39,052 bases of DNA from the NCBI GenBank assembly GCA_025358765.1, contig JANYIG010000289.1, forward strand, positions 1 through 39,052. The letters are read 5' to 3'. Source of the DNA: Candidatus Kapaibacterium sp. Lineage in GTDB: Bacteria > Bacteroidota > Ignavibacteria > Kapaibacteriales > UBA4661. Made by a program: the position numbers and the translations under genes. The notes under the pieces are model-generated. The model saw only the letters and a program-made list of their open reading frames with translations. It was not told the origin of the DNA and made no database searches. Below are positions 4,290 to 27,461 of this stretch, piece after piece (position 1 is the first letter of the stretch; the number at the start of each line of letters is the position of its first letter).

Positions 4290-4354
4290 AAAAAAACAAC
4301 AGCGTTGAAGTGACAGTGTATTGAAGGCTTACCAACCCGCAATATGGCAATAAT

Positions 4355-4384: not shown

Positions 4385-4412
4385 TACCAATTCAAATATT
4401 CCTTCAAAAATA

Positions 4413-5072: not shown

Positions 5073-7051
5073 GGTGAGACTGCCGTCAAAAACCACGTCC
5101 GCATCATACCCTTGCCTTTAATTTCAATCTCCCCACGCTCCTCGAAGGTGAATTGGTTATTCGTCATTGGTTGGTTCGTCATTGGTGGATGTTCACCTGT
5201 CACACGAACGCCCAATGACGAACGACCATTGACCAATGTCAGTCTTTGATACACTTCCTCCGTAACGTGTATCTTCCCCGCTTCCCCGTGCGATTCCATG
5301 CGGCTTGCAGTATTCACCGTGTCACCCCAAAGGTCATAAATAAACTTCTGTTTGCCAATAACACCCGCCACGACGGAGCCCGTGTGGATTCCTACGCGCA
5401 CTTCCATTGGCACGCCAGATTGCGAAGCAAAATCTCGAATCTCTTGCACTATCGCCAGCGCCATTGTTGCGGCAGCTTCTACGTGGTCAGCACGTGCAAC
5501 GGGGATACCACTTGCAACCATATACGCATCGCCGATAGTCTTGATTTTCTCCAAACCAAAGTGTTCTGTCAATCCGTCGAAAATCGAGAATACCCAATCC
5601 AACATTGTGACAATCTCTTCAGGCGAATTTTGTGCCGAAAGCTGCGTAAACCCTACGATGTCTGCAAACAGAACCGTTGCTTCTATAAAGTTCTCCGCTA
5701 TCGGTCGCTCGCCAGTCTTTAAGCGCTGCGCGATGGATTTTGGCAACACATTCAGCAGCAATTTTTCCGATTCACTGCGCTCCTGTTCCACAAGCCCGTA
5801 TGCTTCAGCAAGTTGTGTGTTCGCTTGTGCGAGTTCTACATTTCGTAATCGGACAATTTCGGCTTCTTTTTGCGACTTCTCTGCTTGAAAACTCGCCCGC
5901 AGGTTTTTGAATTGCATATTTTGCTCGTCGCCCGTCACCTGCTCTTTAATGCGGTGAAATGCCTTGAAGTGCCAAAGCGCCCGCGCTGGATTATTCACCT
6001 GTTCATAGACTTCCGCAAATGCCTGATGAATGCGGAATATTTTGGGTTTGGCGTTAATTTCTTCTGCTAATGCCAATGCTCGGTTCAAATATTCAAGCGC
6101 TATATCGGGGATATTTTGCTTTGCAAATAAATTTCCTAAATCAAGAAGTGTCGTTGTCAATCCCTGTTTGTGTCCTATTCGCTCGCGGATGACAAGGCTC
6201 TCGTTATAGTATTGAAGCGCTCGTTCGGGGTCTCCAAGTTCTTGATAGACTGTGCCAATATCTTGTAAGGTTCGCGCAGTGGAAGCACCATTACCAGTAC
6301 GTTCGTTAATTTCAAGGCTCTGAAACAAATAGTCATGCGCCTTCTGGTACTCGCCCAAACGAATACAAACGCTCCCGATTCCGTTCAGTGTACGGGCTTT
6401 GGCAAAACTAATGTCCACGCCTTCGACTATCAGGTTTTGTAGGATGTCAAGGGATTGTTGATAATAACCTAAGGATTGCGGGTAATCGTTCAAATCAAAA
6501 TAAAATGTTCCCAACGAATACAAACCCCACGATTCCGCTTGCCTATCGTTCACAGACCGTGCCATATCAAGCGATTTCAGTGCATACTCCAACCCTTCCT
6601 CGTAATCACCCAACCCCCAATACACAAAACCCAACAGGAAGTACACCCGCCCAATACCACCAACGTCTTTACGCTGCTCAAAAATGCGTAGTGCTTCGTT
6701 AGCGTACTCCATTGCTGCCTCAGCGTTGGAATAAAAACTTGCCCTCATCCCCAACACAACCGATGAATACGCTATACCAATTTCATAATTGATGCCATGC
6801 GAAAGGGCAAATGCTTCTTGTGCTTGGGAAAATGCAAGTTCCGTGTCGGTATTTCGCAACAACCACGCACTCACATTCAGCGCGTCCACCTGTTCGATGA
6901 TCGCCCGCATTTGCTCCGCCGTTTGCTCTTGGGTCTGTGTTGGTGTTATCACTGACATAGGGCTTTCTGACTGCTCTGTACCGATTATGCTATCCTCTCC
7001 GCTGTAGAATGTTTGGAATTCCATCATTTCATCCATGTTCGTGGTTTTCAT
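5069..7051 (-). CDS. Cytoplasmic TPR adenylate cyclase, class III (cyclase A)
   Basis: The chosen ATG at 7051 has a GGAG site about nine bases upstream and gives 660 residues. It overlaps the end of HK2 by 23 bases. There is no signal peptide or TM helix, so this cyclase should be cytoplasmic. TPRs fill about residues 50-370, then a short coiled coil and the LLLNVLP connector, then the catalytic domain from about 460. Metal-binding D464 (FADIVGFT) and D508 (IGDAYMV) are present. The adenine-selecting pair K504 and D573 and transition-state residues N580 and R584 are intact, so ATP is the predicted substrate and cAMP the product. The C-terminal tail ends in GEIEIKGKGMMRTWFL. The overlap suggests translational coupling with HK2. 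Confidence 0.9.
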   Translation of the reverse strand: MKTTNMDEMMEFQTFYSGEDSIIGTEQSESPMSVITPTQTQEQTAEQMRAIIEQVDALNVSAWLLRNTDTELAFSQAQEAFALSHGINYEIGIAYSSVVLGMRASFYSNAEAAMEYANEALRIFEQRKDVGGIGRVYFLLGFVYWGLGDYEEGLEYALKSLDMARSVNDRQAESWGLYSLGTFYFDLNDYPQSLGYYQQSLDILQNLIVEGVDISFAKARTLNGIGSVCIRLGEYQKAHDYLFQSLEINERTGNGASTARTLQDIGTVYQELGDPERALQYYNESLVIRERIGHKQGLTTTLLDLGNLFAKQNIPDIALEYLNRALALAEEINAKPKIFRIHQAFAEVYEQVNNPARALWHFKAFHRIKEQVTGDEQNMQFKNLRASFQAEKSQKEAEIVRLRNVELAQANTQLAEAYGLVEQERSESEKLLLNVLPKSIAQRLKTGERPIAENFIEATVLFADIVGFTQLSAQNSPEEIVTMLDWVFSIFDGLTEHFGLEKIKTIGDAYMVASGIPVARADHVEAAATMALAIVQEIRDFASQSGVPMEVRVGIHTGSVVAGVIGKQKFIYDLWGDTVNTASRMESHGEAGKIHVTEEVYQRLTLVNGRSSLGVRVTGEHPPMTNQPMTNNQFTFEERGEIEIKGKGMMRTWFLTAVSP

Positions 7052-9293: not shown

Positions 9294-9344
9294 GTGAATG
9301 ATATTTTTTTCCCTACATCATTTAGGATTGAATGTTGATAATTG

Positions 9345-11645: not shown

Positions 11646-11820
11646 AGGCAAAATTCCTCATAAAACCACAATCGTTATCAGGGCAATATACGGACAATGA
11701 CGACGATTGCACGGACTCTATTTACGGAAAAGCGACCTCAGAAACAAGTTTGCAGAAAAATTTCTTTGATGAGAAGTTGACCGAACCTCATATTGATGAC
11801 TCGAAGCGACACTATATCAT

Positions 11821-13023
11821 TCAGTCAGTGAGAGGGAACGCCACGACAAACGTTGCGCCATGCCCCAATTCGCTTTCGCACCACACACTCCCGTTCATTG
11901 CTTCCACCATTCGTTTGACAATCGAAAGCCCTAAGCCCGTTGAATCCTCACCACCTGTTGGTTGCGCCGTCAAACGCATAAACTTTCCGAAAAGTTTTGT
12001 TTGGTCTTCAGCACTGATGCCAGGACCTTCGTCCTTCACGCAAAGGTGAATGGAAGATTCAGCATTGAGTACCGACACCCACACCGAACGCCCTTGTGGT
12101 GAGTATTTTACGGCATTGGAAACAAGATTTTCTACAATCTGCATCAAGGCAACTTCATCAGCAAGAATGATGGTACTTGAGGCTTCGCAGACATAATGGA
12201 GTGCAATATCTTTTTTTAATGCTCGAGGACGAAAATTCTCAACAACATTTTCCACCGTTGTTGCCAGCGAACAATGCACTATGGTAAGGTTGAGATTGCC
12301 CTGCTCAATGGCATTAATGTCCAACAGCCGAGAGATAAGGTCAAACATACGCTGTGAGGACGATACAATCATCCGAGCAAAATCTTCCACCTGTTCGCGT
12401 GACAGGTCAGGCACGGTTTCTATCATCGAAGCCAAACCCATAATGCCATTGAGAGGATTTTTCAAATCATGTGCGGCAATTCCCATAAACTCATCTTTTT
12501 CCTTGTTGAGTTCTTTGAGCTGTGCGTTTGCTTCGTGCAGTTCCGCATTTGTTGATTGAATCTCCCACGTCCGCTGTTGCACGGTCTGCTCAAGGCGTTG
12601 GTTGTATTCAGATAAATGCAGCATCAATGCTTTATTTTCGAGTTGTAAATGGTAATACTCGACCGCACTATCTATCGTCATTTTTAAATCGTGTTCCGTC
12701 CAAGGTTTGGTAATATAACGATACACTCCGGCATCATTAATCGCCGATATGACAGCACCAACATCGCTAAACCCTGTCAGCACTATACGAACAATATCGG
12801 GATACAACGGAATAATCTCTTGCAAAAACTCAACACCCGACATTCGCGGCATTCGCTGGTCAACAATAACAACGTGAACAGGCTGCTCTTTAAGCAATTC
12901 TAATGCTTCATGCCCACTAAGAACCGCATGAATCGTATAGTGCCGACGGAATGTGCCTTTAAAAACAGTGAGATTATGTTCTTCATCGTCAATAAACAAA
13001 ACAATGGGCTGTTGGGCATCCAT
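11821..13023 (-). CDS. Receiver-histidine kinase fusion (REC-HisKA-HATPase)
   Basis: The protein has 400 residues and no membrane segment. An N-terminal receiver (about 6-122) shows the acidic pocket D12/D13, phospho-acceptor D55 (VDQRMP), T83 and K106 (TKPW). A coiled coil (about 125-178) links it to HisKA with H185 and a complete HATPase ending at the stop. REC before kinase is the order of soluble relay kinases that receive phosphate from another kinase and pass it on. The neighbouring TPR kinases are natural donors, but pairing is inferred. The TKPW motif is common in receivers of this relay type. The ATG at 13023 is the only sensible start. Confidence 0.92.
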   Translation of the reverse strand: MDAQQPIVLFIDDEEHNLTVFKGTFRRHYTIHAVLSGHEALELLKEQPVHVVIVDQRMPRMSGVEFLQEIIPLYPDIVRIVLTGFSDVGAVISAINDAGVYRYITKPWTEHDLKMTIDSAVEYYHLQLENKALMLHLSEYNQRLEQTVQQRTWEIQSTNAELHEANAQLKELNKEKDEFMGIAAHDLKNPLNGIMGLASMIETVPDLSREQVEDFARMIVSSSQRMFDLISRLLDINAIEQGNLNLTIVHCSLATTVENVVENFRPRALKKDIALHYVCEASSTIILADEVALMQIVENLVSNAVKYSPQGRSVWVSVLNAESSIHLCVKDEGPGISAEDQTKLFGKFMRLTAQPTGGEDSTGLGLSIVKRMVEAMNGSVWCESELGHGATFVVAFPLTD

Positions 13024-13150
13024 AAATGTTCGTAGTTAAGCGTGAAAAAAAAGCATGTATCTCTGTCAATAATTTAGGCGTTATCGTTTTGGAGCAAAAA
13101 AAATATTTCGCATGTACCCTTGTAGCTTGCAGATAGCTTCCATACTGTAT

Positions 13151-13166
13151 GCAGAATAAATTCTGC
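13151..13166. repeat. Short perfect palindrome downstream of HK4
   Basis: GCAGAAT-AA-ATTCTGC is a 7-bp perfect stem with a two-base centre, six bases after the HK4 stop. No T-run follows on either strand, so a simple intrinsic terminator is not supported. It may be a dispersed extragenic palindrome. Confidence 0.5.
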
Positions 13167-13172
13167 GCTCCG

Positions 13173-15368
13173 CTAATACGGCTCTGTGATGGGCAATTCC
13201 ATAATGAACATTGCGCCGTTGCCGGCTTCACTTTCGCACCAAACCTTACCATTCATCGCCTCGACCATCTTTTTCACAATCGAAAGCCCTAAGCCCGTCG
13301 AATGTTCGCCCCCAGTCGGACGGGCAGATAGGCGCGAAAATTTGCCGAAAAGTTTTCCTTTGTCTTCCGCACTTAAACCAGGTCCTTCGTCTTGCACCTC
13401 CAGTCGCAGATACGTCTGCAACCGCATGGATGGTCGCACACCGCTTGGAATCTCCGGTAACGGCTGTTCTTCGTGCGTCGTAAATTTTTTGAGGCGTAAC
13501 CACACGTGTTTGCCCTGCGGAGAGTATTTTACGGCATTGGAGAGCAAATTATCCAAAACTTGGTGTAGCAGTTGTGGATCGGCGTTGATGATTTGATCAG
13601 GCGCTTGATTATCAAAGTGAATGGTGATGGCTTTATCGGAAGCCCGTGCTGTCCAATCATCCATTAATTTTTCAACCACATCTGCTGGTGATACTGGCTC
13701 AGGCGACACCTCAAATTTACCGGATTCTAAGGCATTCAAATCTAACAGATTTAAGATAATTTGCCGCATTCGCCCAGCCGTCGTTTCTATGCGGGTGATG
13801 GATTCTAAAATATCCTCGCTCGTCAGTTTGTCGTAATAACGCTTGATGGTTCCTGCCGACATGATAATTGAAGCGAGCGGGTTTTTCAAATCGTGTGCTG
13901 CTATGGCAAGAAACTCGTTTTTCTGATCGTTCAATTCGTGAAGCTGAACATTACGTTCTTGCAACTCGTAATTTGCCATCTCAATTTGCCGCGACTGCTC
14001 TTCAAGTTGATGTTGTTGGTGCTCAAGATTCACGTTGAGTTCAAGGAGTTCATTATTTGCAAGCTCGATTTCATGCGCCTGTTCCTCCAAGAGTTTTTGT
14101 TGATGATGCAAATCAAAATTCATCTCCTGCAAACCTGTATTCGTAATTTCAATCTCCCGTGCTTGCTCCTCCAAAAGCGTTTGCTGCCGCAAAATCTCCG
14201 TGTTTTGCTGCGAGAGTAGCTTATTTGCTTTTTTCTGACGACGATTGCTGCGGAAAAATACAGAAACGAGTGCAAACACAAGCACCAGTCCTGTTCCAAG
14301 CGCAATAATAATCAACACCTGTAGTTGTTTTTCTTTCGTCAGCAAATCAATTTGCGCCTGTCGTTTTTCCGAAGCCAACATCGTTTCCAAATCAGCAATT
14401 TTTCGTATGCTTTCCTCGCCCGTGATGGAATCCTTCATCGTCGAAAACATCGTTTGGTACTGCAACGCCTTCTGGTACTCGTTTTCGGCGGTATAGATAA
14501 GCGAAAGCGTCTGACTGGCTTGTTTCATCCATTCTATTTCGCCTGTTTCTTTGGCTAGCGTCATTGCTTTGAGTGCCGATTGCTCCGCCCTTTTATACGC
14601 GTTTGTTTTGTAATACACCATCGCAACACTACTTAAAATCTGAGCAACCGCAGATTTATTACCAATTCGTTCATTAATGGCGAGCGCCTTCAGAAAACCC
14701 TGCAACGCAAGCGTATAGTTACCCTGCCGCGAGTAAAGCGTTGCTATTTCCGCAAAAACATCTGCCGTTGCTTCCGGGTCGCCACCTTGTTCGATGATGG
14801 CAAGTGATTTCATCAGATATTCAAGCCCCGTAGAATGTTTGCCCTGACGGGAGTATATGGCACCAATGTTCTCCATAGCAGCAGCAATGCCAGATTGGTC
14901 ATGAAGCGCTTCGTAGGTTTTGAGCGTTCTCTCAAAATACTCCAACGCCAGCGCGTAGTTGCTTTGCCCCATGTATAACAGCCCGATATTGTTCAGCGCG
15001 GGTGCTATCAGCGATGAATCACGACTTTCTTCGCTGACTTTGAGGGATTTAAAATGGTAGTCTAAGGCTTGCGGGTAGTTCCCATGCCGCCGATAGACAA
15101 GCCCTAATATATTGAACGCTCGCGCCATACCAGCTTTGTATTTCAACTGCTCCGCCAGCCCCAACGCCTGCAAACCGTATTCAATGGCACGATTGTGGTC
15201 AAATGTTCGATATTCCCAACAGAGCTTATTAAGGGCATCAACTTTCGCAGCGTCTCGCACCACAGAAAGCACGTGCTTCAAGCTATCCACAACGTTTTTA
15301 TTTTGGGTGGGGGCAGGGTATGCCGAAAAAGAACACGTAACAAGAAGAATCACAACGAGTATTGGCAT
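13173..15368 (-). CDS. Periplasmic-TPR sensor histidine kinase (HK4)
   Basis: The protein has 731 residues. A signal peptide ends near residue 20, and TPRs occupy about 40-310 (ARAFNILGLVYRRHGNYPQA and similar). A TM helix lies at 351-372. The stalk contains three consecutive 28-residue coiled-coil repeats (395-478) and then enters HisKA with H492 in AAHDLKNPL. The HATPase boxes are complete: DNLLSNAVKY near 606, DEGPG near 660 and GLGLS near 692. A loop of about 30 residues is inserted between the N and G1 boxes, at the same place as inserts in HK2 and HK3. Gaps to both neighbours are short (about 150 and 90 bases), so it may have its own promoter. Confidence 0.92.
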   Translation of the reverse strand: MPILVVILLVTCSFSAYPAPTQNKNVVDSLKHVLSVVRDAAKVDALNKLCWEYRTFDHNRAIEYGLQALGLAEQLKYKAGMARAFNILGLVYRRHGNYPQALDYHFKSLKVSEESRDSSLIAPALNNIGLLYMGQSNYALALEYFERTLKTYEALHDQSGIAAAMENIGAIYSRQGKHSTGLEYLMKSLAIIEQGGDPEATADVFAEIATLYSRQGNYTLALQGFLKALAINERIGNKSAVAQILSSVAMVYYKTNAYKRAEQSALKAMTLAKETGEIEWMKQASQTLSLIYTAENEYQKALQYQTMFSTMKDSITGEESIRKIADLETMLASEKRQAQIDLLTKEKQLQVLIIIALGTGLVLVFALVSVFFRSNRRQKKANKLLSQQNTEILRQQTLLEEQAREIEITNTGLQEMNFDLHHQQKLLEEQAHEIELANNELLELNVNLEHQQHQLEEQSRQIEMANYELQERNVQLHELNDQKNEFLAIAAHDLKNPLASIIMSAGTIKRYYDKLTSEDILESITRIETTAGRMRQIILNLLDLNALESGKFEVSPEPVSPADVVEKLMDDWTARASDKAITIHFDNQAPDQIINADPQLLHQVLDNLLSNAVKYSPQGKHVWLRLKKFTTHEEQPLPEIPSGVRPSMRLQTYLRLEVQDEGPGLSAEDKGKLFGKFSRLSARPTGGEHSTGLGLSIVKKMVEAMNGKVWCESEAGNGAMFIMELPITEPY
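13935..14186 (-). repeat. Three tandem 84-bp units encoding a coiled-coil stalk
   Basis: Residues 395-478 of HK4 are three copies of a 28-residue unit beginning QQxxLEEQxxxIExxNxxL. Each unit equals four heptads, so copy number changes keep the coiled-coil phase. The same unit occurs in the other kinases and in cyclase B. Confidence 0.9.
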
Positions 15369-15459
15369 AATACAAAGCGATAAAAATGGGATGTTCCGTA
15401 CTGTTGATTGAATATGGGCTTGAAGGACATCATTACTCTATTTTACGCCAATACAATAG

Positions 15460-17529
15460 CTACGACGATTCCGATACTATAAAGTACGTTTTCATCAACC
15501 CTTTGCCCTTAATCTCAAGCTCGCCACGCTCCACAAAAACAAATTTGCCCTTTGTTGATAGGTCATTGGTTATTGGGGAAAAATCTTGTTCGTGACGACT
15601 GACCAACGTTGCATGGCTATTGACCAATGAGAGTCTTCGATAGACTTCCTCCGAAACATGAATTGTATTTGCTTCTCCATGCGATTCCATCCGGCTTGCC
15701 GTATTCACCGTATCGCCCCAGAGGTCGTAAGAAAACTTACTTGTACCAAGCACACCCGCCACAATGGGACCCGTATGAATACCAATACGAATACTCAATG
15801 GGGTATTGAGCGTTGAAAGTTGCTTACGTAAATGATTGCCTTGCTCATCATCCGTTCTCCACGAACCGCTTTCAATCGCATGGAGCATCGCCAGCGCAAG
15901 CCGTGCAATCCGTTCGCAGTGGTCGTCCGTCACTTTGGGAACACCACCAACGACCATATAATTATCGCCTATCGTTTTGATTTTTTCCACGCCATGCCGA
16001 CGCACCAAATCATCAAAGGTCGTGAAGATGCGGTTCAAAAGCTCAACCAGCGCTTCGGGTGTGATTTGCGCGGAAATCTGTGTGAAACCTACAATGTCCG
16101 CAAACAGTACCGTTGCGCTCGGAAAGCTATCCACAATCGTCTGCTCGCCCGCTTTCAAGCGCTCGGCAATCGCTTCGGGCAAAACATTGAGCAGCAAGGA
16201 CTCCGCCTTGAATTTTTGTGCTTCGAGGTTTATGTTGAGGTGGTTTATTTTCTCCACGGAGCGCGACAACTCAAGGTTTTGCTCTTGAACTTGCGTGTTA
16301 ATAATTTCGATTTCAACGGATTGATGCTCTAAAATCTCCTGCTGCCGCAAAATTTCATTGTTTGCATTCAGCTTTTGACGATAACCAATAGTCACCACCA
16401 CTACTAATGCCACGAGCAGCGCAATCCCAAGAACCAATGTGTTCTGGCGCGTGGATTGAAGCTGCTGTTCGTGCTCAAGTTCTTCTATTTCTTTGTCTTT
16501 CTGGGTACTCATAAAACGTGCTTCCAACTCAGCCACTCGCTGAGTATTTTCTTTACTGAACACAGAATCCCGTAACGCGACCGAACGTTTGTACGACCGC
16601 AATGCCTCGCGGTCGTTGCCCATAGCCGCATACACCTCGGACATGGTGGAATGGGCCTCCTGCTCGTGCAAGACTATGCCAATATTCTCTGCCACATCAA
16701 TAGCTGTTTGCAACGCCTCTAATGCCTCGTTGTATCTGCCAAGCACCCGATAAATTTTACCTAAATTATTCAGCGAAAAGCTATAGAGTTCGTTTTCGCC
16801 TGTTTTTTTGCGAATAGAAACGGCTCTCAGGCAGTATTCAAGCGCTCTTTGGGATTCTTTTTGCTTGAGATACACTTCAGCAATATTATTAAAACAATAT
16901 GCCTGTCCTGATGAATCCTTGAGGTCTTGCCAGATGACAAGTGTTTTGAAAAAATACTCTAATGCACGGTCATAATCTCCTTGTTTGTCGTACACCCGAC
17001 CAATATTATTGTACGAATCCGCCGTACCGGCACGGTCTGCAAGCAAACCTTTGATGGCTAATGATTGGGAATACATCTCCAACGCAAACTGGTATTTGCC
17101 CTGCCGCATGGAGACAAGCCCAATATTACTGAGCGTGTTGGATATACCTCGTTTGTCACCGATGCGCTCCCGAATCGTCAAGGCATGGTGCAAATTCTCC
17201 AATGCGAGGTCGTATCTGCCAAGGCTTTCGTAATTAACGCCAATATTATTAAGCCCATATCCAAGACCTATACTATCGTTGAGCTTGATAGCGAGTGCAA
17301 TTGACTGTTGCGCGTAGTCCATAGAGCGCGAAGGACTACGGTCGCGGTAATGCCGTGCGATACGTCCCAGAAGGCGCACTACGCTTGTGTCTTGACGTTT
17401 TTCGACTTCGTATCGCTTCAACACGGATTCCAATGAATCAACGAGGTTATCTTGCGCTATGGCATGACGAACACTACTCACAGACAGGAGTGTTAAGACC
17501 ATGACGATTATGGCGAACAATTGCTTCAT
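15460..17529 (-). CDS. Periplasmic-TPR membrane adenylate cyclase, class III (cyclase B)
   Basis: The protein has 689 residues. A signal peptide ends near residue 25 (AIAQ) and about six TPRs fill residues 50-310. A TM helix lies at 365-383. One 28-residue stalk unit (RQQEILEHQ...) and the LLLNVLPEAIAERLKAGE connector lead to the catalytic domain at 474. D478, D522, K518, D602, N609 and R613 match the full catalytic and adenine-binding set, so it should make cAMP. An insert of about 20 residues (near 552-575) precedes the second half of the domain. Its ATG overlaps the stop of cyclase C (ATGA), so the two cyclases are co-translated and could form heterodimers; that last point is inference. 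Confidence 0.92.
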   Translation of the reverse strand: MKQLFAIIVMVLTLLSVSSVRHAIAQDNLVDSLESVLKRYEVEKRQDTSVVRLLGRIARHYRDRSPSRSMDYAQQSIALAIKLNDSIGLGYGLNNIGVNYESLGRYDLALENLHHALTIRERIGDKRGISNTLSNIGLVSMRQGKYQFALEMYSQSLAIKGLLADRAGTADSYNNIGRVYDKQGDYDRALEYFFKTLVIWQDLKDSSGQAYCFNNIAEVYLKQKESQRALEYCLRAVSIRKKTGENELYSFSLNNLGKIYRVLGRYNEALEALQTAIDVAENIGIVLHEQEAHSTMSEVYAAMGNDREALRSYKRSVALRDSVFSKENTQRVAELEARFMSTQKDKEIEELEHEQQLQSTRQNTLVLGIALLVALVVVVTIGYRQKLNANNEILRQQEILEHQSVEIEIINTQVQEQNLELSRSVEKINHLNINLEAQKFKAESLLLNVLPEAIAERLKAGEQTIVDSFPSATVLFADIVGFTQISAQITPEALVELLNRIFTTFDDLVRRHGVEKIKTIGDNYMVVGGVPKVTDDHCERIARLALAMLHAIESGSWRTDDEQGNHLRKQLSTLNTPLSIRIGIHTGPIVAGVLGTSKFSYDLWGDTVNTASRMESHGEANTIHVSEEVYRRLSLVNSHATLVSRHEQDFSPITNDLSTKGKFVFVERGELEIKGKGLMKTYFIVSESS

Positions 17530-19763
17530 ACTATTGCCTCCTGTCCCGTCGTGTGCTTGCCCACCAGAAAATACGTCTGCATCATGCCCTTACCTTTAAT
17601 ATGCGTAATGCCACAATCTTCAAACTCAAAATCCTTGCAAAGTTTTTCGTGTACCTCTGCCGTACAGTGGATCTTGCCCGCCTCGCCGTGAGATTCCATG
17701 CGTGATGCTGTGTTGACGGTATCGCCCCAAAGGTCATAGTTGAATTTTTTTGTGCCGATAACGCCCGCAATCGCTTCCCCTGTGTGCATCCCAATCCTTA
17801 CAGACAGCCCAATAATCCCCATCGTCTCTGCCAAATGGCGCAACGCTTCGTGCATTTCCAATGCCAATAATGCAACCGCTGCCGCAGCATCTTCATGAAC
17901 AGTCGTGCCTGATGCCCTCCTGTGTGGAGTTGGTGAACTACAATGGGCGCTCGGAAGCCCGCCCACAACCATATATGCATCGCCGATGGTTTTAATTTTC
18001 TCCACACCAAAACGTTCAACAAGCTGATCGAACTCGGAAAATACGGAATCTAACAACGATACTAATGCTTCCGGCTTAATACGGGCTGAAAGCCGCGTAA
18101 AACCTGCAATATCGGCAAAAAGAACCGTCACGTTCGGGAGTTTATCGGCTATCGTCTGCTCGCCTGCTTTCAAGCGCTCGGCAATACGCGGCGGCAACAC
18201 GTTGAGTAGCAAATCTTCCGATTTTTCGCGTTCCGAAGCAATACCCACATTTTTTTTGAGCAACTCCATATTCGTGAACATAATTTGCTGCGATTGTTCG
18301 TTCAATACCTCAAGCTGACGCTGAATTTCTTCGTTTGCATCGTGCAGTTGCCCGTTTTTTGTCTCCAATTCTTTCGTGCGCTCGGCTACAACGCTCTCCA
18401 ATTCTTCCTTCTGGCGTTCTATCAACCGTTGTTTTTCGCGTTCTTGGTCAATCGCCTGACGGGAAAGCTCTTGGACGTTGAGGAGCTGTTCGCCAATTTT
18501 TTGGTTCATATTTGCAAAATGCCGCGCCACGTACAGTGCCATTGCAACGGGCATGGATAAAAATGTTCCGTATTGCGTGAATGCTTGCCAACCAAGAGCG
18601 AGCTTCCACCCCGCCAATGTGCTAATAATCAAGCTAACCGACGTAACCAAAAACATACTTACCCCCACTCCGATTATCACCGCTCCATCACGCTTACGAC
18701 GAATAGCAACAACAACAATACGACAAAATTCCGCAAACTGTACCGTTACCACCACCAACAATAGCACGTTCCAAGAAGAAATCGGCAATATAAATCGCCC
18801 AATAACCAACCCCACCGCCGACGGCACAACAAACCATAACCGATGACGCAAAGGCTGTTCATACACGATTGTGTAAAGCGCCGCCGACAGTGATAATATC
18901 ACCATCGCCAATGCTACCACAAAAGCGATTTCATTCCACACCAAGCGCTCTCTGGTTGTATGCAAATACAACCGCGCATAATACGAGAAGCACACGCCCG
19001 CGAGCATTACGGAAAACACCGCCAAATAGAGATTTGTTTTGTTGCTTTGCACGTAAACATACATGGCATAATGCAATAATGCCAATAAAATCAATATTCC
19101 AATAGGAACCATAGCAAAAATGATCGTCACCGTGCGATCAGCAGCATAACGCTGGAGGCGGCTTGCGGACTCGCCCATGGCAAACGAAAAACCTAATGTT
19201 CCTTTTAAGCCTTGCCCGTAACGGTTATTCAATGTACGCAGTCGCGCATCGGAGTACCGCAGTGCCAGAACATGGCGTGGCGAACTATCGAGAAAGAGCG
19301 GGACGGGGCGGGCTTGTGTGTGGAAAGCTTTTTCGAGGGTTGCATCAGCGCTTACAATACCAAAACGGTTTACCAACCGACCGTCACAATACAGCTCCGA
19401 AGCGCCAAAATGGTTCATCACCACCGCAACCGTCGTGTTGTAGAGTGAAGAATCTACTTCCAGCACAAGACGGAACCACCCAAGCCCAGACCAGAAGTCA
19501 TCGGCAAGGGTGTCAAGAGCGAGCATAGTCGGCAAAACACGCCAATTGGAATCATTCAATGTAGGTAGCGTATAGGCAAGATTATCGCCCGTGCGAAATT
19601 TCCACCATGTTTCCGTTCCAACAACACGGTTATTCGCAAGAGAATCAGCGGCAATACGAAGAACTGCCCTCTGCACGGTATCTGTGTCGGCACGCAACGA
19701 CGGCACGCACCACCACAAAAAGCAGGTAAGAAAAAATAGTGGCAACCGATGGAAAAATTTCAT
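17526..19763 (-). CDS. 7TM-type membrane adenylate cyclase with jelly-roll-like sensor (cyclase C)
   Basis: The protein has 745 residues. After a signal peptide (1-25) comes an extracytoplasmic domain (about 26-205) with WFRLVLEVDSSL and ELYCDGRLVNRFG, typical of galactose-binding or 7TMR-DISM-associated beta-sandwich sensors. About seven hydrophobic helices lie between 212 and 430. A long coiled coil and the LLLNVLPPRIAERLKAGE connector precede the cyclase at 547. Catalytic D551, D595, K591, D677, N684 and R688 are intact, which predicts adenylate cyclase activity. A basic, serine-rich insert of about 17 residues follows GGLP (near 604). No TPR is present, which sets it apart from its neighbours. 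Sugar or other small-ligand sensing is inferred from the domain type. Confidence 0.9.
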   Translation of the reverse strand: MKFFHRLPLFFLTCFLWWCVPSLRADTDTVQRAVLRIAADSLANNRVVGTETWWKFRTGDNLAYTLPTLNDSNWRVLPTMLALDTLADDFWSGLGWFRLVLEVDSSLYNTTVAVVMNHFGASELYCDGRLVNRFGIVSADATLEKAFHTQARPVPLFLDSSPRHVLALRYSDARLRTLNNRYGQGLKGTLGFSFAMGESASRLQRYAADRTVTIIFAMVPIGILILLALLHYAMYVYVQSNKTNLYLAVFSVMLAGVCFSYYARLYLHTTRERLVWNEIAFVVALAMVILSLSAALYTIVYEQPLRHRLWFVVPSAVGLVIGRFILPISSWNVLLLVVVTVQFAEFCRIVVVAIRRKRDGAVIIGVGVSMFLVTSVSLIISTLAGWKLALGWQAFTQYGTFLSMPVAMALYVARHFANMNQKIGEQLLNVQELSRQAIDQEREKQRLIERQKEELESVVAERTKELETKNGQLHDANEEIQRQLEVLNEQSQQIMFTNMELLKKNVGIASEREKSEDLLLNVLPPRIAERLKAGEQTIADKLPNVTVLFADIAGFTRLSARIKPEALVSLLDSVFSEFDQLVERFGVEKIKTIGDAYMVVGGLPSAHCSSPTPHRRASGTTVHEDAAAAVALLALEMHEALRHLAETMGIIGLSVRIGMHTGEAIAGVIGTKKFNYDLWGDTVNTASRMESHGEAGKIHCTAEVHEKLCKDFEFEDCGITHIKGKGMMQTYFLVGKHTTGQEAIV

Positions 19764-19853
19764 ACACGAACGCCATTATGGGACGAAAGAATTGGCAGCA
19801 ATGTGATACATCTTCACCGAAAAACCGAAATAAGAACGACAGATTCTCGCGGT

Positions 19854-21119
19854 TCAGCTTTCGTAACGGCTGTTTACCTGATGTCTATCATTGGTGACTT
19901 CTTCGACGTAAGCAGGAAATTCGACGCAAAATGTCGCACCGCTGCCCGCCTCACTTTCGCACCACACACAAGCATTCATAAGCTCTACAAGCCGTTTGAC
20001 GATAGAAAGCCCCAGACCCGTCGAATGCTCACCACCCGTTGGTTGCGCGGTAAGCCGTACAAATTTTCCAAAGAGTTTTGTTTGGTCGGCGGCGCTAATG
20101 CCAGGACCTTCGTCTTTTACACGTATCAAGCAACAAGGGGCGGATAGCAAGCCCGATAGAGCTTCTGCCTTGTGAGCCGAAACCCAAACATTTTTTCCAT
20201 GCGGCGAATATTTCACGGCATTGGAAAGCAGGTTATCAACAACTTGCATCAGTGCTTTATCGTCTGCCAGCGCAATCAACTCAGGTGAGTTGGCATAATG
20301 AATGTTGATACCCTTGCGAGCCGCTTGGAGACGGTATCGCTCGACAATTGCCAGCACAAGTCCGTCTATATGTATGGGTTTCACCATGATTGGCATACTA
20401 CCGCTTTCAATCATTTCTACCTTGAGCAGATGGTCAATCAATTCTATACCCCGCTCGGCAGACGAATCAATCACTTTCGCCAATGTCGCAATAAGTGTCG
20501 GCGTTAATTCATCCGCCTCCAGAATGATTTCAACGCTTGTTCGGACCGAACTGAGAGGGTTTTTCAAATCGTGTGCAACAATACGAAGAATTTCTCTCCG
20601 TTCGTAATTCATCTCGGCGAGCGCTTTGTTAGCCTCTTCCAAACGGACAAGTGCTTTTGTAAGGGCTGCGTTTTGTGTGGATACATCGTAATGCTCGAAC
20701 GATAAACGCACGGCTTCTAACAAATCCGCATTTTTCCACGGTTTTGTAAGAAAACGGTACGCATGACCAAGATTGATACTATCAATAATCTCCGCCACAT
20801 CTGCATACCCCGTCAAAATCACACGCACCGCATTCGGCACAAATTCGTTTGCCTTTGCCAAAAATTCAGCACCAGAAATGCCGGGCATCCGTTGGTCAGC
20901 GATAATTACCTCTGGCATGAACCCTTGTGACAACAACGTAAGCGCATAATCCCCTGACTCTGCGGTTTGTACCTCATAAACATCGGCAAACAGATTTTCT
21001 AACAACGTCAACAGCGCTACTTCATCATCCACAATCAGCAGCTTTCTATACGACGGCTTTTCCAACTGTACTTGTGATGGCTGCAGTCCCGTAAACGCCG
21101 TTGTTTTGATGGTAAGCAT
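19854..21119 (-). CDS. Receiver-histidine kinase fusion (REC-HisKA-HATPase)
   Basis: The ATG at 21119 gives 421 residues and lies four bases after the stop of HK5; an upstream in-frame extension inside HK5 is rejected. The receiver (about 25-140) has D31/D32, phospho-acceptor D75 (ADQRMP) and K126 (TKPW). A coiled coil leads to HisKA with H183 in VAHDLKNPLS and a complete HATPase with DNLLSNAVKY, DEGPG and GLGLS. The layout repeats that of the gene at 11821, so the two are paralogues. The tight spacing with HK5 indicates one operon, with HK5 the probable phosphodonor. Confidence 0.92.
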   Translation of the reverse strand: MLTIKTTAFTGLQPSQVQLEKPSYRKLLIVDDEVALLTLLENLFADVYEVQTAESGDYALTLLSQGFMPEVIIADQRMPGISGAEFLAKANEFVPNAVRVILTGYADVAEIIDSINLGHAYRFLTKPWKNADLLEAVRLSFEHYDVSTQNAALTKALVRLEEANKALAEMNYERREILRIVAHDLKNPLSSVRTSVEIILEADELTPTLIATLAKVIDSSAERGIELIDHLLKVEMIESGSMPIMVKPIHIDGLVLAIVERYRLQAARKGINIHYANSPELIALADDKALMQVVDNLLSNAVKYSPHGKNVWVSAHKAEALSGLLSAPCCLIRVKDEGPGISAADQTKLFGKFVRLTAQPTGGEHSTGLGLSIVKRLVELMNACVWCESEAGSGATFCVEFPAYVEEVTNDRHQVNSRYES

Positions 21120-21123
21120 GGAA

Positions 21124-22527
21124 TTACTTTCTGAGAATGGGGTATTGATGATGGGAAGTTTGCCACGATGAAACAGCGTCTGTCGCCTTTGAAAACGGGA
21201 ACGTAAGCACAAATGTCGTACCCACGCCAACTTCAGATGACACTGCGATATTCGCGCCGTGCTGTTCGATGATACTTTTGCTAATGCTCAAGCCTAATCC
21301 GCTATTATCACCACCTTTGGCGGAAAAAAACGGCTCAAAAATATTCTGCTGTAGTTCATCGGACATTCCCGCGCCATTGTCCCGAACACGAATAACGATG
21401 CCACCTGATGCCGATTCTGATGTTGGCAAACATTCCCCCTCCAAACAGATATGCGTTGCACCTGCTTGAGCCGCATTCACCATTAAATTCAAAAATACCT
21501 GATTGATTTCTGCGAAATTGGCACTCAGACTCAAGTGTTCTTCAAATGCCGTTTCCACAACTATGCCTTTGAATTGATACCGAAAAATCTGAATCGTCGA
21601 GCGGAGTTCTGTGGCAATATCACCCATCTGTGCGCCCACACGCTGATGTTTGGTAAAGTTTTGCAGGTTATTCACAATCTGTTTTACGCGCTCGGAGCCT
21701 TCTAACGCCACATCGAGCATCTTTACTGCTTTTACCATCATCGTGCGGAAACCGTGCGCCTCGACGGATTTGCTACCCGCTTCGTCCAACAGGGAGAAGA
21801 AAAACTCATTGATTGCGCTCATGGTGTGCTGAACGCTCTCTAATGCTGAATAAACAGCCGCGTTCGGATTATTGATTTCGTGCATCACTCCCGCCGTCAG
21901 CATCCCGGCGGTACTCATACGTTCGCTGTGAACAAGTTGCGCTTCTTTTTCTTTGAGTTCACGTAATGCAACGTCCAATTGCCCATTCTTTTCTTGCAAT
22001 TCCACGTTTGCCGAGACGATTTCGTGGACTAAATCATCACGAAGCGCCATCTGCGTACGAATCTCGGCGTTCGCAATGTCAATCAGTGAGAGTGCCGACT
22101 CGACCTGAATATTTTTTTCGTTCAACTCGGCATTCGTACGTTCAATAAGACGTGATTGCTCAGTTTGTATCACGATTTGACGACGAACTTCCTCATTCGC
22201 TTCGGAAAGTTGGAGATTGTTCTCCACCAGCATATTGTTGAACAATTGAATATCTTGCGCCTGTCTGTTGATAATATCTTGCTGCTGCTGAAGGTCAGCA
22301 TTCGTTGCCCGCAACTGTTCTTCGGACTTGCCTTTCAGCCTGTATTGATACATAAATATCCCGAACAACACCAACACAAGCACCAACACGACGAATAATA
22401 TCCACGTCACCATCGTAAACTCAAAGGCAAAACCTGCATAGTGAACGTCACCATACTGAAAGCCAAATACTGCCACAACAGGCACAATCAGCCACAACGG
22501 GAAGGAATATTGTACGGTATAGCTCAT
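21124..22527 (-). CDS. Membrane histidine kinase, HPK4/NtrB-like head (HK5)
   Basis: The protein has 467 residues. Two hydrophobic segments (about 8-26 and 38-60) suggest a short membrane anchor with almost no external domain. A long coiled coil (65-205) follows. The dimerisation box is VMHEINNPN with H216, which differs from the AHDLKNP box of the other kinases and matches the HPK4 group. The HATPase has NLMVNAAQAG, DNGAGM, FEPFFSAK and GLGLSISKSI. It may sense membrane state or a signal through the coil. It forms a two-gene unit with the REC-kinase downstream. The kinase remnant at 576-671 is its closest relative in the window. Confidence 0.92.
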   Translation of the reverse strand: MSYTVQYSFPLWLIVPVVAVFGFQYGDVHYAGFAFEFTMVTWILFVVLVLVLVLFGIFMYQYRLKGKSEEQLRATNADLQQQQDIINRQAQDIQLFNNMLVENNLQLSEANEEVRRQIVIQTEQSRLIERTNAELNEKNIQVESALSLIDIANAEIRTQMALRDDLVHEIVSANVELQEKNGQLDVALRELKEKEAQLVHSERMSTAGMLTAGVMHEINNPNAAVYSALESVQHTMSAINEFFFSLLDEAGSKSVEAHGFRTMMVKAVKMLDVALEGSERVKQIVNNLQNFTKHQRVGAQMGDIATELRSTIQIFRYQFKGIVVETAFEEHLSLSANFAEINQVFLNLMVNAAQAGATHICLEGECLPTSESASGGIVIRVRDNGAGMSDELQQNIFEPFFSAKGGDNSGLGLSISKSIIEQHGANIAVSSEVGVGTTFVLTFPFSKATDAVSSWQTSHHQYPILRK

Positions 22528-22694: not shown

Positions 22695-22730
22695 AAATAG
22701 AGCAGCCCATTTAAAAATAGAACAGCCCAC
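22695..22730. repeat. Two 16-bp direct repeats, period 20
   Basis: AAAATAGAGCAGCCCA (22695-22710) and AAAATAGAACAGCCCA (22715-22730) differ at one base and are 20 bases apart, roughly two helical turns. The spacing would suit a dimeric regulator binding one DNA face, but a short remnant of a mobile element is equally possible. Confidence 0.75.
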
Positions 22731-23108
22731 TTCGGGATTTCTGTCCGTCAGCAGGCTGTGTTTTGGATAAAAAATTGAGCGCCTTCCTCCAGAAGCGAAT
22801 GGAGGCAAAATGCGGGATTACATGGCGGGCAGAGTTTTTTCTTCAACTCTTTTTAACGTTTTAAGAGTTCATAATGGGTTACTCTTTTTGTCCGCGGTTT
22901 TATGGCAGGGCGCTTTGGGCGCTCACTTTATCTCATTAGCAAGGTGATTGTTTACTGGTTACCAGCCGTATTGATTTGCTGTTCCAGCGTTTTGTTCACC
23001 CACTATTTTCCACAATGGTTCGAGTAAGGTTAAACATTGCATCACACAACAAAGAGCTTTCAATACCGTATCGGTTCGAGTACAGATGGAACATTATGAA
23101 ATGCTACA

Positions 23109-23936
23109 CTACGAATGTTTTTTGTAAATTTTCCCCCTGCTGGTTCCTTCAAGCCTTCCGGCAATTAAATAGGCTACAATTTCCGTTTTTTTGTCACCGC
23201 AAAGCCACCAGTGCGGAAATGCTGTTTTCCAAGCTTGTTGTTTATTATTCGGTTTGATGCGCGACAACGTTACAATCATCAGCTGTTTTCCCTGCTGAAG
23301 CCATTGTTCCATCTGTTCTGGCGGAACCTCACCGCTTGGAAGGTAGATGACCTCACTATGCTGGAGATGACAAGCCGGAGAGTATTCTTCTACTGCTCCG
23401 CACAGCGAGCATAAAGAATCATGCGTTCCCAAATGCGTCAGGTTCTCCAAGCCGCACCGAATAGAACGTTCAAATGATTCGGGGGCAGCCACATACAACG
23501 TCATTGCGCCCTCGACCAGTGCATGTTCGCGCGTGGCTTGGCTGATGTTGGTCAGTCCAAAGCGAGGATTGACACCCTTTCTACGATCTTTACCGATATA
23601 TTCTACATCGTAGCGCCGGATTTGGTGAAAGGCGCGAAAAAAAATCATTCCCGCTGGCGCATCCACACACACCTTCAGCAAATGTGCGTTTTGCAAAATC
23701 GCTTGCGCTTCCTCCGCCTTTCCTACACGAAATAACGATGAGGCAATACCGAGAATAACCGTCGTTGGCGAAACTACCGGTGAGCCGACGGCAGCGGCAA
23801 AAACTGAACGAGGGTCGCGGTAGGAATACGTATGGAACGTGTACTGCGCTCGCAGCCACTGCAACGCTTCAAGCTGCTCGCCTCCAGCAAGGTTGTTGCT
23901 CCCAACTACATGCTCGCTCCGCGTTTTTTGTCTCAT
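23109..23936 (-). CDS. cas5: Cas5-like Cascade subunit
   Basis: The protein has 275 residues, last of four overlapping genes. The N-terminal half (TFHTYSYRDPRSVF, then SPVVSPTTVILGIASSLF at 52-69) follows the Cas5 RAMP pattern in which a proline-rich strand leads into a helix of the ferredoxin-like fold. Cas5 caps the 5' handle of crRNA in type I Cascade. Residues 176-193 carry C176, C179, C189 and H190/H193, a possible zinc knuckle that is not a standard Cas5 feature. The ATG overlaps the cas7 stop by four bases. Identification rests on the N-terminal pattern and on position after cas7, and the divergent C-terminus prevents subtype assignment. Confidence 0.75.
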   Translation of the reverse strand: MRQKTRSEHVVGSNNLAGGEQLEALQWLRAQYTFHTYSYRDPRSVFAAAVGSPVVSPTTVILGIASSLFRVGKAEEAQAILQNAHLLKVCVDAPAGMIFFRAFHQIRRYDVEYIGKDRRKGVNPRFGLTNISQATREHALVEGAMTLYVAAPESFERSIRCGLENLTHLGTHDSLCSLCGAVEEYSPACHLQHSEVIYLPSGEVPPEQMEQWLQQGKQLMIVTLSRIKPNNKQQAWKTAFPHWWLCGDKKTEIVAYLIAGRLEGTSRGKIYKKHS

Positions 23937-25114
23937 AGTCCGCTTTTTATGTGCAAGATGTTGCGGATGTTAGGCAACACATCAAGCAATTGACGCACAT
24001 CGGCAAATGCCCATGCCCATGTATCCACGCCGTTTGCAAGACCAAGCATTTCCGTAGCGTACTGCTCGTTTAATGCTACAGGCTCTTCATCACGTTGCAA
24101 TGAGATTTTGATGGGGGAGACAAACGGCGCTGTTCGTGCCGATGAAAGCACGATAGCGCCTTCGGTTAAAAAAACATGCGGAGCCCACGCTGACACTTTT
24201 GCGCCCGTTGGTGAAGCAATGCTGTTAATCATTGCCTCTACAAGCGCTAATTGTCGGCTGGATTGTTCTTCGAGGCTCACAGCAAGACGCTCGGTGTTTG
24301 GTTGCAAATACCAATAATCATCCGTACCGATCCGATGCAAGTCGGCTCGCATCACACCACCGTAGATATTGGAACGCATCGTCTGGCTGAATAACCGTTG
24401 ATTCCCACCCGGACGATATGCCACGTGCTGTGTGACGGCAACGTCCTGCGGCTGCTCGCTTACGAGCCAACCTACATCAAAAACGGAATCGCGCTTTACG
24501 GTGTACGGCGCTCCACCGTCACTTTTGCCTCCGATGTCCGCCATATCGCGCATTATTTCTTGCTCTGGAGCAATTTTCTGATTTGCCTTGACACTGTGCG
24601 CCATGTTTTCAGGCGCAGCACGTTTGTTAGATTTTTGCGAGGATTGCAGCACGACCGCCTCCGGCGCAACGTGTTCTTCTATCGAGGATTCCGTTTGTTG
24701 GTCTATTTGGAGCGCATCCCCTTTTTCTGCAAATGCCGCTAAGAAACCACCCACGTCAATCACGGCACAATCTTGCAGCGACCGTCGCACAGCAGCATAG
24801 AGTTCTTGTGGGTTACTCTTAGAAAGTTTTTCGGTGCCCAACTCCCGCGCTTTTTTACGGATGGCAAAAATACTGCGATCTGGATGAAGTGCTTGACTAA
24901 AAGAAAGTATAGGCAAATCACGCACCTCGCAAAGACCCACAAAGTTTTTTAGAATGTGTCGTCGCAAAATTTCGCCGCTGATGCCATCGTACGTAGCACT
25001 ACCAACGTCTATCCGGCGGGGCTGCATGAGATTGCCACCATCCGATCCTTCGTTGTTCAGCGCATGGAACCCAAGCCCCAAACGATATGATACAGACATG
25101 CTCCAAAGTTTCAT
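23933..25114 (-). CDS. cas7: Cas7, DevR/Csa2 family Cascade backbone
   Basis: The protein has 393 residues. The DevR/Csa2 pattern is clear: SVSYRLGLGFHALNNEG (7-23), the TYDGISGEILRRH segment (41-53) and, later, FDVGWLVSE with RSNIYGGVMRADLHRIG (247-263). Cas7 polymerises along the crRNA spacer in type I Cascade. A polar stretch at about 130-205 (rich in Q, E, S, K) interrupts the fold and makes the protein somewhat longer than many family members. The ATG overlaps the upstream stop (ATGA), so it is translationally coupled to the large-subunit gene. The family assignment points to subtypes I-A or I-B, the group that also includes the Myxococcus DevTRS proteins. Confidence 0.85.
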   Translation of the reverse strand: MKLWSMSVSYRLGLGFHALNNEGSDGGNLMQPRRIDVGSATYDGISGEILRRHILKNFVGLCEVRDLPILSFSQALHPDRSIFAIRKKARELGTEKLSKSNPQELYAAVRRSLQDCAVIDVGGFLAAFAEKGDALQIDQQTESSIEEHVAPEAVVLQSSQKSNKRAAPENMAHSVKANQKIAPEQEIMRDMADIGGKSDGGAPYTVKRDSVFDVGWLVSEQPQDVAVTQHVAYRPGGNQRLFSQTMRSNIYGGVMRADLHRIGTDDYWYLQPNTERLAVSLEEQSSRQLALVEAMINSIASPTGAKVSAWAPHVFLTEGAIVLSSARTAPFVSPIKISLQRDEEPVALNEQYATEMLGLANGVDTWAWAFADVRQLLDVLPNIRNILHIKSGL

Positions 25115-26595
25115 GCCGCCTGCCCTGCCGGAACCGGCATCGAAATTGGCATCGGAGAAGGCTGGTGTTCACGGTACGTGCTTTGCTGAATCAAGTACAT
25201 GCGGAATAAATCCCGAAATGCCTCGAACTCACGACGGTCGTCGCCAACGCTTGCGAGCAAAGCTATCGGGTCGAAATCCTCCTCGCGGTGGATGGTTGCT
25301 ATGGCAGGATTCCGGCGGTGCGCTTGTTCAAGCAGGGTTAGTGCGCGTTCGCGGAAGGCTTTTGGCGTTGAAGCCGAGCGCAAAATGCTCACTTCGTCAT
25401 ACCACGCTTTGCCTTTGTTTTCGGCGGTGCGCTGGCGTGTTTCCCAAATCGCTGACGAAACGGCTTTGGCAAACTTCCGAACAGCTTCATAACCGCTTCC
25501 ACTACTGCCTCCGGCTACGTTGCCGCTCCAATTTGTATAGCTCATGGTGAATATCTCCTGTACATCGGTTGGTTGTGTAAAAATATTGAGATAACGGTTG
25601 GTGCTTTGCGTCAGACAACGTAATTTTTCTTGCCCTGTAATCAAGGCAGAAAGGCGCTTTGGTGTTGGTTGCATCACCCATTCCGCCATTGTCAGGCAGT
25701 GAGCCGTAAAATCCGTACTCACGTTGTTATTAGTCGTGTCCCATGCTTTGTAAAGCAGTAATGTATAGCTTTCCAAAATATGCGATGCCATTCTATGTGA
25801 CTGTAGTTTGCTGAGAAGAGTTGATTGAATTGCAATAACTCCAGAAAAATTATAGTTACCTCGTGGAGCATAATTGGTGTTATAGGCAACAGCCACTAAA
25901 CAATCCGCACAATCGTTCTCCAAAACAAGCAATGAAGCCTTCAGAGCTAATAGATATAAAACTTGCACACAGAGTACACTCGGAATAATAATGCTGCCCT
26001 TGCCGAATCCAGTAAGATTTATGGAGGTCACGACTTCTGGCACAGAGCAACGCCCCTCAAATACAGGCAAGAATCGGATGCCCGCGATTTCCTCCATACG
26101 AGATTGCCCCGCAAACACCAACAGCGCATCGGCAAGCGGCAACACAGCTTTCATGCCCTGCCCTGCTTCTAAGCCCCTGTATTTTATGGCGGCACCGTCA
26201 CGAACACCCGCTTTTATGGCACTATCGGGGTTTTCAAGTGGCAAAGCCACGTTCAGAAGCTCGCCAGATGGATACGTGGTATTGGTATGCAACGCCGCAT
26301 GAAACTGCGCCATAAAAGCATCATCACTCGGCTTCAGAGCGCCTCGACGTAAGGCAATAAGCCATTGCTGGAGGATTTGTTGCGATTCAGATTGTTGCAC
26401 ATAGTTGCTGTTTTCGGTGGGGCAAGCATTCATCCTCGTTTGAAGATGCCAAGCGTGTCCGGCATCGTGCATAAAAACTTCACACTGAACATCATCGGAA
26501 TAAATTTCAAGCGCCCCATACAGCCGTAAAACATCCAAAAACGGCAACCCCGTTTTGGGAATATGAAGTATTGATGTGCTGTTCATGTCTTTCAT
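25111..26595 (-). CDS. Probable Cascade large subunit (Cas8-type), family not assigned
   Basis: The protein has 494 residues and starts at an ATG behind GAGGA. Its place between cas6 and cas7, its size and its overlap with cas7 fit a Cas8 large subunit, which recognises the target-flanking motif and recruits Cas3. The N-terminus (HIPKTGLPFLDVLRLYGALE) has the type of opening seen in several Cas8-like proteins, but I do not recognise a named family. No HD or helicase motif is present, so it is not a Cas3 fusion, and no GGDD palm motif is seen, so it is not Cas10. The C-terminal 25 residues are proline-rich. Function is inferred mainly from context. Confidence 0.6.
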   Translation of the reverse strand: MKDMNSTSILHIPKTGLPFLDVLRLYGALEIYSDDVQCEVFMHDAGHAWHLQTRMNACPTENSNYVQQSESQQILQQWLIALRRGALKPSDDAFMAQFHAALHTNTTYPSGELLNVALPLENPDSAIKAGVRDGAAIKYRGLEAGQGMKAVLPLADALLVFAGQSRMEEIAGIRFLPVFEGRCSVPEVVTSINLTGFGKGSIIIPSVLCVQVLYLLALKASLLVLENDCADCLVAVAYNTNYAPRGNYNFSGVIAIQSTLLSKLQSHRMASHILESYTLLLYKAWDTTNNNVSTDFTAHCLTMAEWVMQPTPKRLSALITGQEKLRCLTQSTNRYLNIFTQPTDVQEIFTMSYTNWSGNVAGGSSGSGYEAVRKFAKAVSSAIWETRQRTAENKGKAWYDEVSILRSASTPKAFRERALTLLEQAHRRNPAIATIHREEDFDPIALLASVGDDRREFEAFRDLFRMYLIQQSTYREHQPSPMPISMPVPAGQAA

Positions 26596-26609
26596 TCATA
26601 TCCTCTGGT

Positions 26610-27461
26610 TCATATTTTTTTGTTCATGTCAACTTCGACCATACCCATACCCATCGCATTATGCTCACCAAAGCCGCATTCGTAACCTACTTGCAATAAT
26701 TCCGATGCTCCAGAAATACGAAACGGTGCTTGAACACCGATAATATCAATCGGAAACTGCCCATGTTCGTGCATCGTGATTTTTTTTGTTATGCGCCCAT
26801 GCCGCGCACAGTAGTCAGCATCCCATTCGATGGTAAGCGGCTCGCAGGTTATTTCTTTACCCGTTAAGAGCGTATATTTCCGTGTAAGATTCCCCGTAAG
26901 CACACGACTAAATTCTTCTGTGTCGCTGGGGCGAAGATAGTATTTCTGCAAACGCCCACTATGGAACCGTTTTGTAGCACAAACTATCGGTGAAAGCGCT
27001 TGAAACCTCATTGTGTCGGAAACTGAAATGTCGGGAGCTTGCTCCATGCTCGTTACTTCAAACGTTACATTCCCTCCGCCCGTGCAAATGCTGATGTTAC
27101 CTTGCTTTAATAAGCCTGTCATCATGTACCGCATAAATGTTTCAGCAAGAGGCGAGGTCACTCGCAGCTCCACCTGTGGCTGATAAAGCCGTATTACGCC
27201 GTCTGCAATTTGCATACCGCGCAAACCCTTGTCGGCTCCCGTAAAGCGAAGCGCAAACGTAAAGAGCTTGTATATTTTATTTTGCAAACGAAACCCAATT
27301 TCATGGAGGTTTGCAGCAAAATCTGGCTCTGCGAGGCTTACCAGACCATAAATCGCGCTGGAAAGTGCGTGGTGGTAATTCGCAGAAAGCGTGAACGCTC
27401 CTGTTTCGCGGGAGAAGGCATCATGCTTCTGTTGGGCAGTAAGCCCGATGTGGAACCGCAT
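26610..27461 (-). CDS. cas6: Cas6 CRISPR RNA endoribonuclease
   Basis: From the ATG at 27461 the protein has 283 residues; a TTG 16 codons earlier is not needed. MRFHIGLTAQQ, SANYHHALSSAIYGLV (26-41) and LHEIGF...KLFTFALRF follow the Cas6 N-terminal pattern. The C-terminal glycine-rich loop GFGEHNAMGMGMVEV is diagnostic of Cas6. Y29, H53 and K62 are candidates for the catalytic triad by comparison with archaeal Cas6; this mapping is tentative. Cas6 cuts precursor CRISPR RNA in repeats and stays on the 3' handle. It is the first gene of the operon, 14 bases before the large-subunit gene. Its presence implies that a CRISPR RNA is processed, though no array is in the window. Confidence 0.88.
   Translation of the reverse strand: MRFHIGLTAQQKHDAFSRETGAFTLSANYHHALSSAIYGLVSLAEPDFAANLHEIGFRLQNKIYKLFTFALRFTGADKGLRGMQIADGVIRLYQPQVELRVTSPLAETFMRYMMTGLLKQGNISICTGGGNVTFEVTSMEQAPDISVSDTMRFQALSPIVCATKRFHSGRLQKYYLRPSDTEEFSRVLTGNLTRKYTLLTGKEITCEPLTIEWDADYCARHGRITKKITMHEHGQFPIDIIGVQAPFRISGASELLQVGYECGFGEHNAMGMGMVEVDMNKKI

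Follow-up and report, generated by a model that had tools for sequence, protein, structure and literature searches.

What does a type I Cascade operon do when cas3, adaptation genes and a CRISPR array are all missing beside it? The question is raised by a contig (C25) of a Candidatus Kapaibacterium draft genome, whose 39,052 nt are the window analysed here. Four cas genes, in the order cas6-cas8-cas7-cas5, occupy about 4.35 kb of the minus strand (23109-27461), and their frames are all open. The features of the locus, in the order of their coordinates, are as follows.

22716..22955, plus strand: truncated copy of a host gene, next to the operon at its 3' end, to the left of cas5
23109..23936, minus strand: cas5, 275 aa, predicted fold nearest to type I-A Cas5
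23933..25114, minus strand: cas7 (DevR/Csa2 family), 393 aa
24497..24685 (approximate), minus strand: internal insertion in Cas7, about 60 polar residues, absent in all aligned relatives
25111..26595, minus strand: cas8-like large subunit, 494 aa, probably of the Cas8a (I-A) lineage
26610..27461, minus strand: cas6, 283 aa, predicted pre-crRNA endoribonuclease

The four components and their identification

The genes are tightly coupled, all on the minus strand, and lie at the place given in the earlier note. Four bases are shared by cas8 and cas7 and again by cas7 and cas5, and 14 bases separate cas6 from cas8, with AGAGGA, a plausible candidate for a ribosome-binding site, directly before the cas8 ATG. 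The most likely start of cas6 is the ATG at 27461 (the mechanical open reading frame opens at a TTG, at 27509). The G+C content at codon position 3 is 0.47-0.50 in the four genes, similar to that of the flanks. There is no space among them for a separate gene encoding a Cas11/Csa5 small subunit, which may be part of Cas8.

Profile searches, which the earlier note had proposed as a check, place Cas6 (PF01881, 2.8e-28) and Cas7 (PF01905, 6.2e-26) above the Pfam cut-off. Cas7 also matches the Cas7a profile (4.7e-12) and falls within the DevR/Csa2 family, while Cas6 is further matched by TIGR01877 (2.1e-29), by PDB 5yi6 (3.5e-14) and, among the PADLOC profiles, by Cas6b (3.1e-47) ahead of the type IV Cas6 (5.8e-34).

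Of the four identifications, that of the large subunit is the least secure. Taken alone, the protein matches the Cas8a profile of PADLOC weakly (E 0.031), Foldseek alone gave no Cas8 match, and sequence searches of solved structures gave nothing useful for either Cas8 or Cas5. We read it as a probable Cas8 because it lies in the position of cas8, because six homologues 38-42% identical to it match Cas8a (best 5.7e-14), and because the six best matches in a structural comparison were all type I-B or I-C Cascade chains (Z 4.7-7.0), taken as large subunits by their length and found with a low-confidence predicted model (mean pLDDT 54). Cas5 likewise matches its profiles weakly (0.038-0.14), but the assignment is supported by where the gene lies, by the predicted fold and by 28% identity (6e-23) to the equivalently placed gene of an annotated Allomeiothermus cas operon. 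For the Cas5 model (mean pLDDT 62), the four best matches are type I-A Cascade chains (Z 11.1-11.5, rmsd 3.8-4.1 over 174-194 residues), the first chain of another type following at Z 8.8, which points to a predicted I-A fold. The earlier description of a complete complex is supported for the gene set, which looks complete. Cas8, Cas7 and Cas5 appear to form a divergent type I-A-like module.

Relatives of the operon and the origin of its Cas6

A Cas7 alignment of two rows, used to scan 84,980 species genomes for relatives, returned one distant and six close ones, the latter with 47-49% segment identity (54-57% over the alignment). The close relatives belong to Chloroflexi, Binatia, Bacillota and Ca. 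Methanoperedens, and their proteins are 38-42% (Cas8), 54-57% (Cas7) and 46-50% (Cas5) identical to those of the operon. Each of the six has, right before cas8, a gene for a Cas3 of about 800 aa with a helicase and a C-terminal HD domain, the HD profile covering about residues 565-789 in those scanned. The gene also lies beside cas8 in outgroup loci, i.e., those of the Allomeiothermus silvanus plasmid pMESIL01, of Calidithermus and of G481, a genome from the same class as the host. The locus of G481 (contig C14, L043, 2492-8423) is a distant I-A-like member in which Cas3 is split into separate helicase and HD genes.

The earlier note had held that normal loci carry cas3 near these genes, and had suggested a comparison with related genomes. 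Every relative inspected has cas3 beside cas8 and none is devoid of it, so that its absence here is a real departure. Since lineages with cas3 lie on both sides of the operon in the trees, this absence is most simply explained by loss. The I-A-like relatives have in common with the operon the order cas8-cas7-cas5 and mostly overlapping genes, but they carry cas3 upstream and, as far as their contigs extend, a larger Cas6, cas1/cas2/cas4 and arrays. The operon is without all of these, and the Cas6 encoded upstream of its cas8 is a different one. We also considered the N-terminus of Cas8 as proof of a junction. The operon protein is devoid of an extension of about 20-25 residues (W..A...L..FGG) found in the six cas3-bearing relatives, but so are the outgroup Cas8 proteins, which weakens this argument.

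The subfamily of the operon's Cas6 differs from that of the larger Cas6 (PDLC01477) of the cas3-bearing relatives, and has matches in 59 of the 395 genomes of the host phylum, with up to 45% identity. At ten loci inspected in context, the homologue is typically the first gene of an effector operon, or near one. These operons read as Cas10/Csm/Cmr at L079, L080 and L085-L087 and as type I-B-like at L081, L082 and L084, gene identities here being assigned by BLAST against the Cas proteins of the host genome and by reading, not by profiles. At L087, the Cas6 relative adjoins an array whose repeat ends in ATTGAAAC / GAATTGAAAC, as in both arrays of the host genome. This kind of Cas6 is frequent in the host phylum and unlike that of the relatives, so that a phylum-type Cas6 now stands in the position of cas3, an arrangement that none of the relatives inspected shares. 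The operon is then a chimera, in which a Cas6 of the type III/I-B kind of the host phylum occupies the place of cas3, and both the loss of cas3 and the recruitment of Cas6 are probably derived states. The enzyme keeps its predicted catalytic residues: Tyr38, His53 and Lys65 align with the catalytic triad of Pyrococcus furiosus Cas6 (Tyr31/His46/Lys52) and are invariant or nearly so among ten homologues. The endoribonuclease active site is thus probably intact, and its activity is predicted.

Are the other three genes still under selection? We defined deep invariants as the residues invariant across the close relatives and the outgroups, leaving out the operon proteins. The latter keep 79 of 81 such residues in Cas7, 26 of 29 in Cas8 and 26 of 28 in Cas5, at a mean identity of 39-55% to the close relatives. 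Together with the open frames, this agrees with the earlier view of intact genes under selection. Such conservation argues that the lineage was long under purifying selection; it does not date the loss of cas3, and may be older than that loss. The operon has a longer branch than any of the six close relatives in all three trees (Cas7, Cas8 and Cas5), and the excess is relatively greatest in Cas8 (1.08 against 0.38-0.56), a weak hint that would fit a release from contact with Cas3.

The contig and the other CRISPR systems of the host

Neither a search for repeats nor k-mer periodicity revealed a CRISPR array in the 39-kb contig, nor did a fuzzy search that used the two resident repeats, and tblastn with the proteins of the relatives revealed no remnant of cas3 or cas1 there. 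No cas2, cas4 or transposase was seen among the window proteins profiled, and the contig yielded no Rfam match and no tRNA. The flank genes scanned are of TPR, kinase, PQQ, rhodanese and hydrolase types. From 1593 to 21230, consecutive TPR/histidine-kinase-type genes lie on the same strand with about 65-80% DNA identity in parts, and this run is an expanded family of sensor genes. Counterparts of flank genes, 58-81% identical and in part syntenic, occur in other genomes of the family, all of which are without the operon; the contig therefore belongs well with the rest of the genome, whereas the operon is an accessory element. As to its source, a phage origin was rejected after phage records and three scans of viral contigs gave zero matches, and a plasmid origin after plasmids provided distant relatives only.

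The operon is present in one of the ten genomes of the family, and its Cas8 has two matches, both weak and distant, among 395 genomes of the phylum and 391 of the class. With the operon in a single genome, no comparison bears on its long-term retention without cas3. Next to cas5, the remnant at 22716-22955 comprises the upstream region and the first ~27 codons of a lipoprotein-like gene, 78% identical to its intact counterpart on another contig (C161, 2030-2270), the remainder of the gene being missing beside the operon; it marks the boundary of a rearrangement. This boundary, the single occurrence and the array and adaptation genes missing in cis are all in line with a relic, i.e., an operon that recombination brought in or rebuilt, whose cas3 was lost a short time ago and which is now disused, too recently for decay to have set in. 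We regard this as unlikely, if not very much so. The four frames are open and closely packed, their composition at codon position 3 resembles that of the flanks, and the deep invariants are retained. Furthermore, Cas6 comes from another lineage and has its triad intact, and a plausible ribosome-binding site follows its gene, which speaks for an operon that was rebuilt and not just broken.

The genome (a draft of 4.86 Mb on 362 contigs, 98.25% complete and with 2.31% contamination) encodes two further type I loci, both I-B. One (C133) is complete: its genes, cas6-cas5-cas3-cas8b-cas7-cas4-cas1-cas2, are accompanied by an array with at least 7 repeats, GTTTCAATTCCTCAAAGGTGCGATAAATAC, that continues past the contig end. 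The other is apparently split over two contigs, which most likely represent one locus: C342 carries a partial cas1, two repeat copies, cas8b-cas7-cas5, a small gene and a cas3 broken by the contig end, and C226 the rest of cas3 and, by reading, a Cas6-like gene. The partial cas1 (L005, 1-456) and the two-copy repeat GAATAAGGATTGAAAC (1159-1250) have a nucleotidyltransferase-like gene between them, and this array appears to be eroded or to have been truncated in the assembly. The small gene, between cas5 and cas3 (L005, 5672-6103), encodes 143 aa without a PADLOC match, in which the motif RFRDMISHH resembles HepT/HEPN by eye. The repeats of both host arrays end in ATTGAAAC. A pattern scan for repeats ending in TTGAAA(C), on contigs long enough to be kept, revealed only these two arrays; an additional two-copy match on C73 looks like a chance match, and the reversed-pattern control gave six.

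The earlier statement that cas3, adaptation genes and array are missing is thus correct for the contig and not for the genome, which has I-B cas3, cas1 and arrays elsewhere. Could the cognate genes simply have escaped assembly? The draft is fragmented, and the C133 array and the C342 cas3 both lie at contig ends, which shows that this assembly tends to break in CRISPR regions. A cognate cas3, together with cas1-2 and an array, might then be absent from the draft or lie on an unassembled plasmid. This is improbable: the genome is 98.25% complete, and the cas3 of the relatives adjoins cas8, a position that is assembled here and holds cas6.

The Cascade of the operon might instead be one part of a split interference system, borrowing the array and Cas3 (and Cas1-2-4) of C133 or of C342/C226, a possibility that the earlier note had raised against its own reading. 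Arrays with the ending ATTGAAAC are present in the genome, and C133 encodes a full HD-helicase Cas3, the sole match in the host to the Cas3 profile of the I-A-like relatives (1.4e-22). No cas3 of the operon's own I-A-like lineage was found in the draft genome, and both genomic cas3 genes sit in the I-B loci. There they accompany full Cascades of their own: like the operon, the two systems are of type I, but they encode their own cas6, cas8b, cas7 and cas5, and their Cas8b families are unlike the Cas8 of the operon. A cognate Cascade normally recruits Cas3 through Cas8. The result that the earlier note named as its refutation thus applies only by half. We find such sharing distinctly unlikely.

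A putative DNA-binding complex

The reading that we favour, tentatively, is that of an I-A-like Cascade that has lost Cas3 and acts as an RNA-guided DNA-binding complex fed in trans. It is favoured because Cas6 has kept its triad and because the array at L087 and the resident arrays have the same repeat end. Cas6 would cut CRISPR transcripts made in trans, most likely those with repeats ending in ATTGAAAC, e.g., from the C133 array, to give mature crRNAs carrying a AUUGAAAC handle. Cas7 would polymerise on the crRNA, Cas5 and Cas8 would cap it, and the complex would bind matching DNA. As the complex has no Cas3 to itself, it would silence or roadblock the target (a plasmid, a phage or a host gene) and not shred it. 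We infer the assembly of the complex, the use of arrays in trans and the non-destructive binding from what is present, i.e., the gene content without a cognate cas3, the Cas6 triad, the conservation of residues and host arrays with a fitting 3' end. Two points speak against a binder fed in trans: the resident I-B systems already have their own Cas6, and the contig is without array, leader or nuclease. A more specific version, in which a stable, selected chimera of a cas3-less I-A-like module and a type III/I-B Cas6 uses co-resident crRNAs as a natural RNA-guided repressor or roadblock, is possible but doubtful.

Type I variants without cas3 are known. They include I-E2 and I-F4, which are fused to HNH, and CASTs such as the Mu-linked I-A system CasMu-I (PMC12669027; PMC10910872). 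A cas3-less I-C is thought to be a DNA binder (PMC12669027; PMC10910872), type IV-A acts by inhibiting transcription (PMC12669027), and 'Cascade-only' loci were discussed in 2011 (PMC3150331). Each resembles the operon in part. The I-E2 and I-F4 variants are, like it, type I Cascades that are typically without cas3, but they have HNH fused to Cas5 or Cas8f, whereas neither HNH (Pfam) nor another nuclease domain was detected in the operon proteins. Type IV-A and the 'Cascade-only' type U also consist of an effector module without nuclease and adaptation genes (PMC3150331; PMC12669027). However, type IV has Csf-type Cas7 and Cas5 and DinG, whereas the operon has I-A-like Cas8, Cas7 and Cas5 with type I DevR profiles, and no DinG was seen in the contig. 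CasMu-I, too, is a type I-A-like Cascade without cas3, which it lost (PMC10910872; PMC12669027), and the operon might accordingly be a transposition guide whose transposon was lost or lies elsewhere. This is very improbable: CasMu-I has a Mu transposase, whereas neither a Mu-like transposase, among the window proteins profiled, nor transposon end repeats were seen in the 39 kb. In the literature searched, the cas6-cas8-cas7-cas5 form of the operon is undescribed, although a prior description is still possible.

Elsewhere, type I effectors that lost Cas3 became transposon guides, precise nucleases and likely DNA binders. If the reading of an RNA-guided binder fed in trans is true, the operon would be a Cascade rebuilt by module swap and kept as a pure DNA binder, without a link to a transposon or to a new nuclease. 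With its four genes, this compact operon would be a testable candidate for a programmable silencer.
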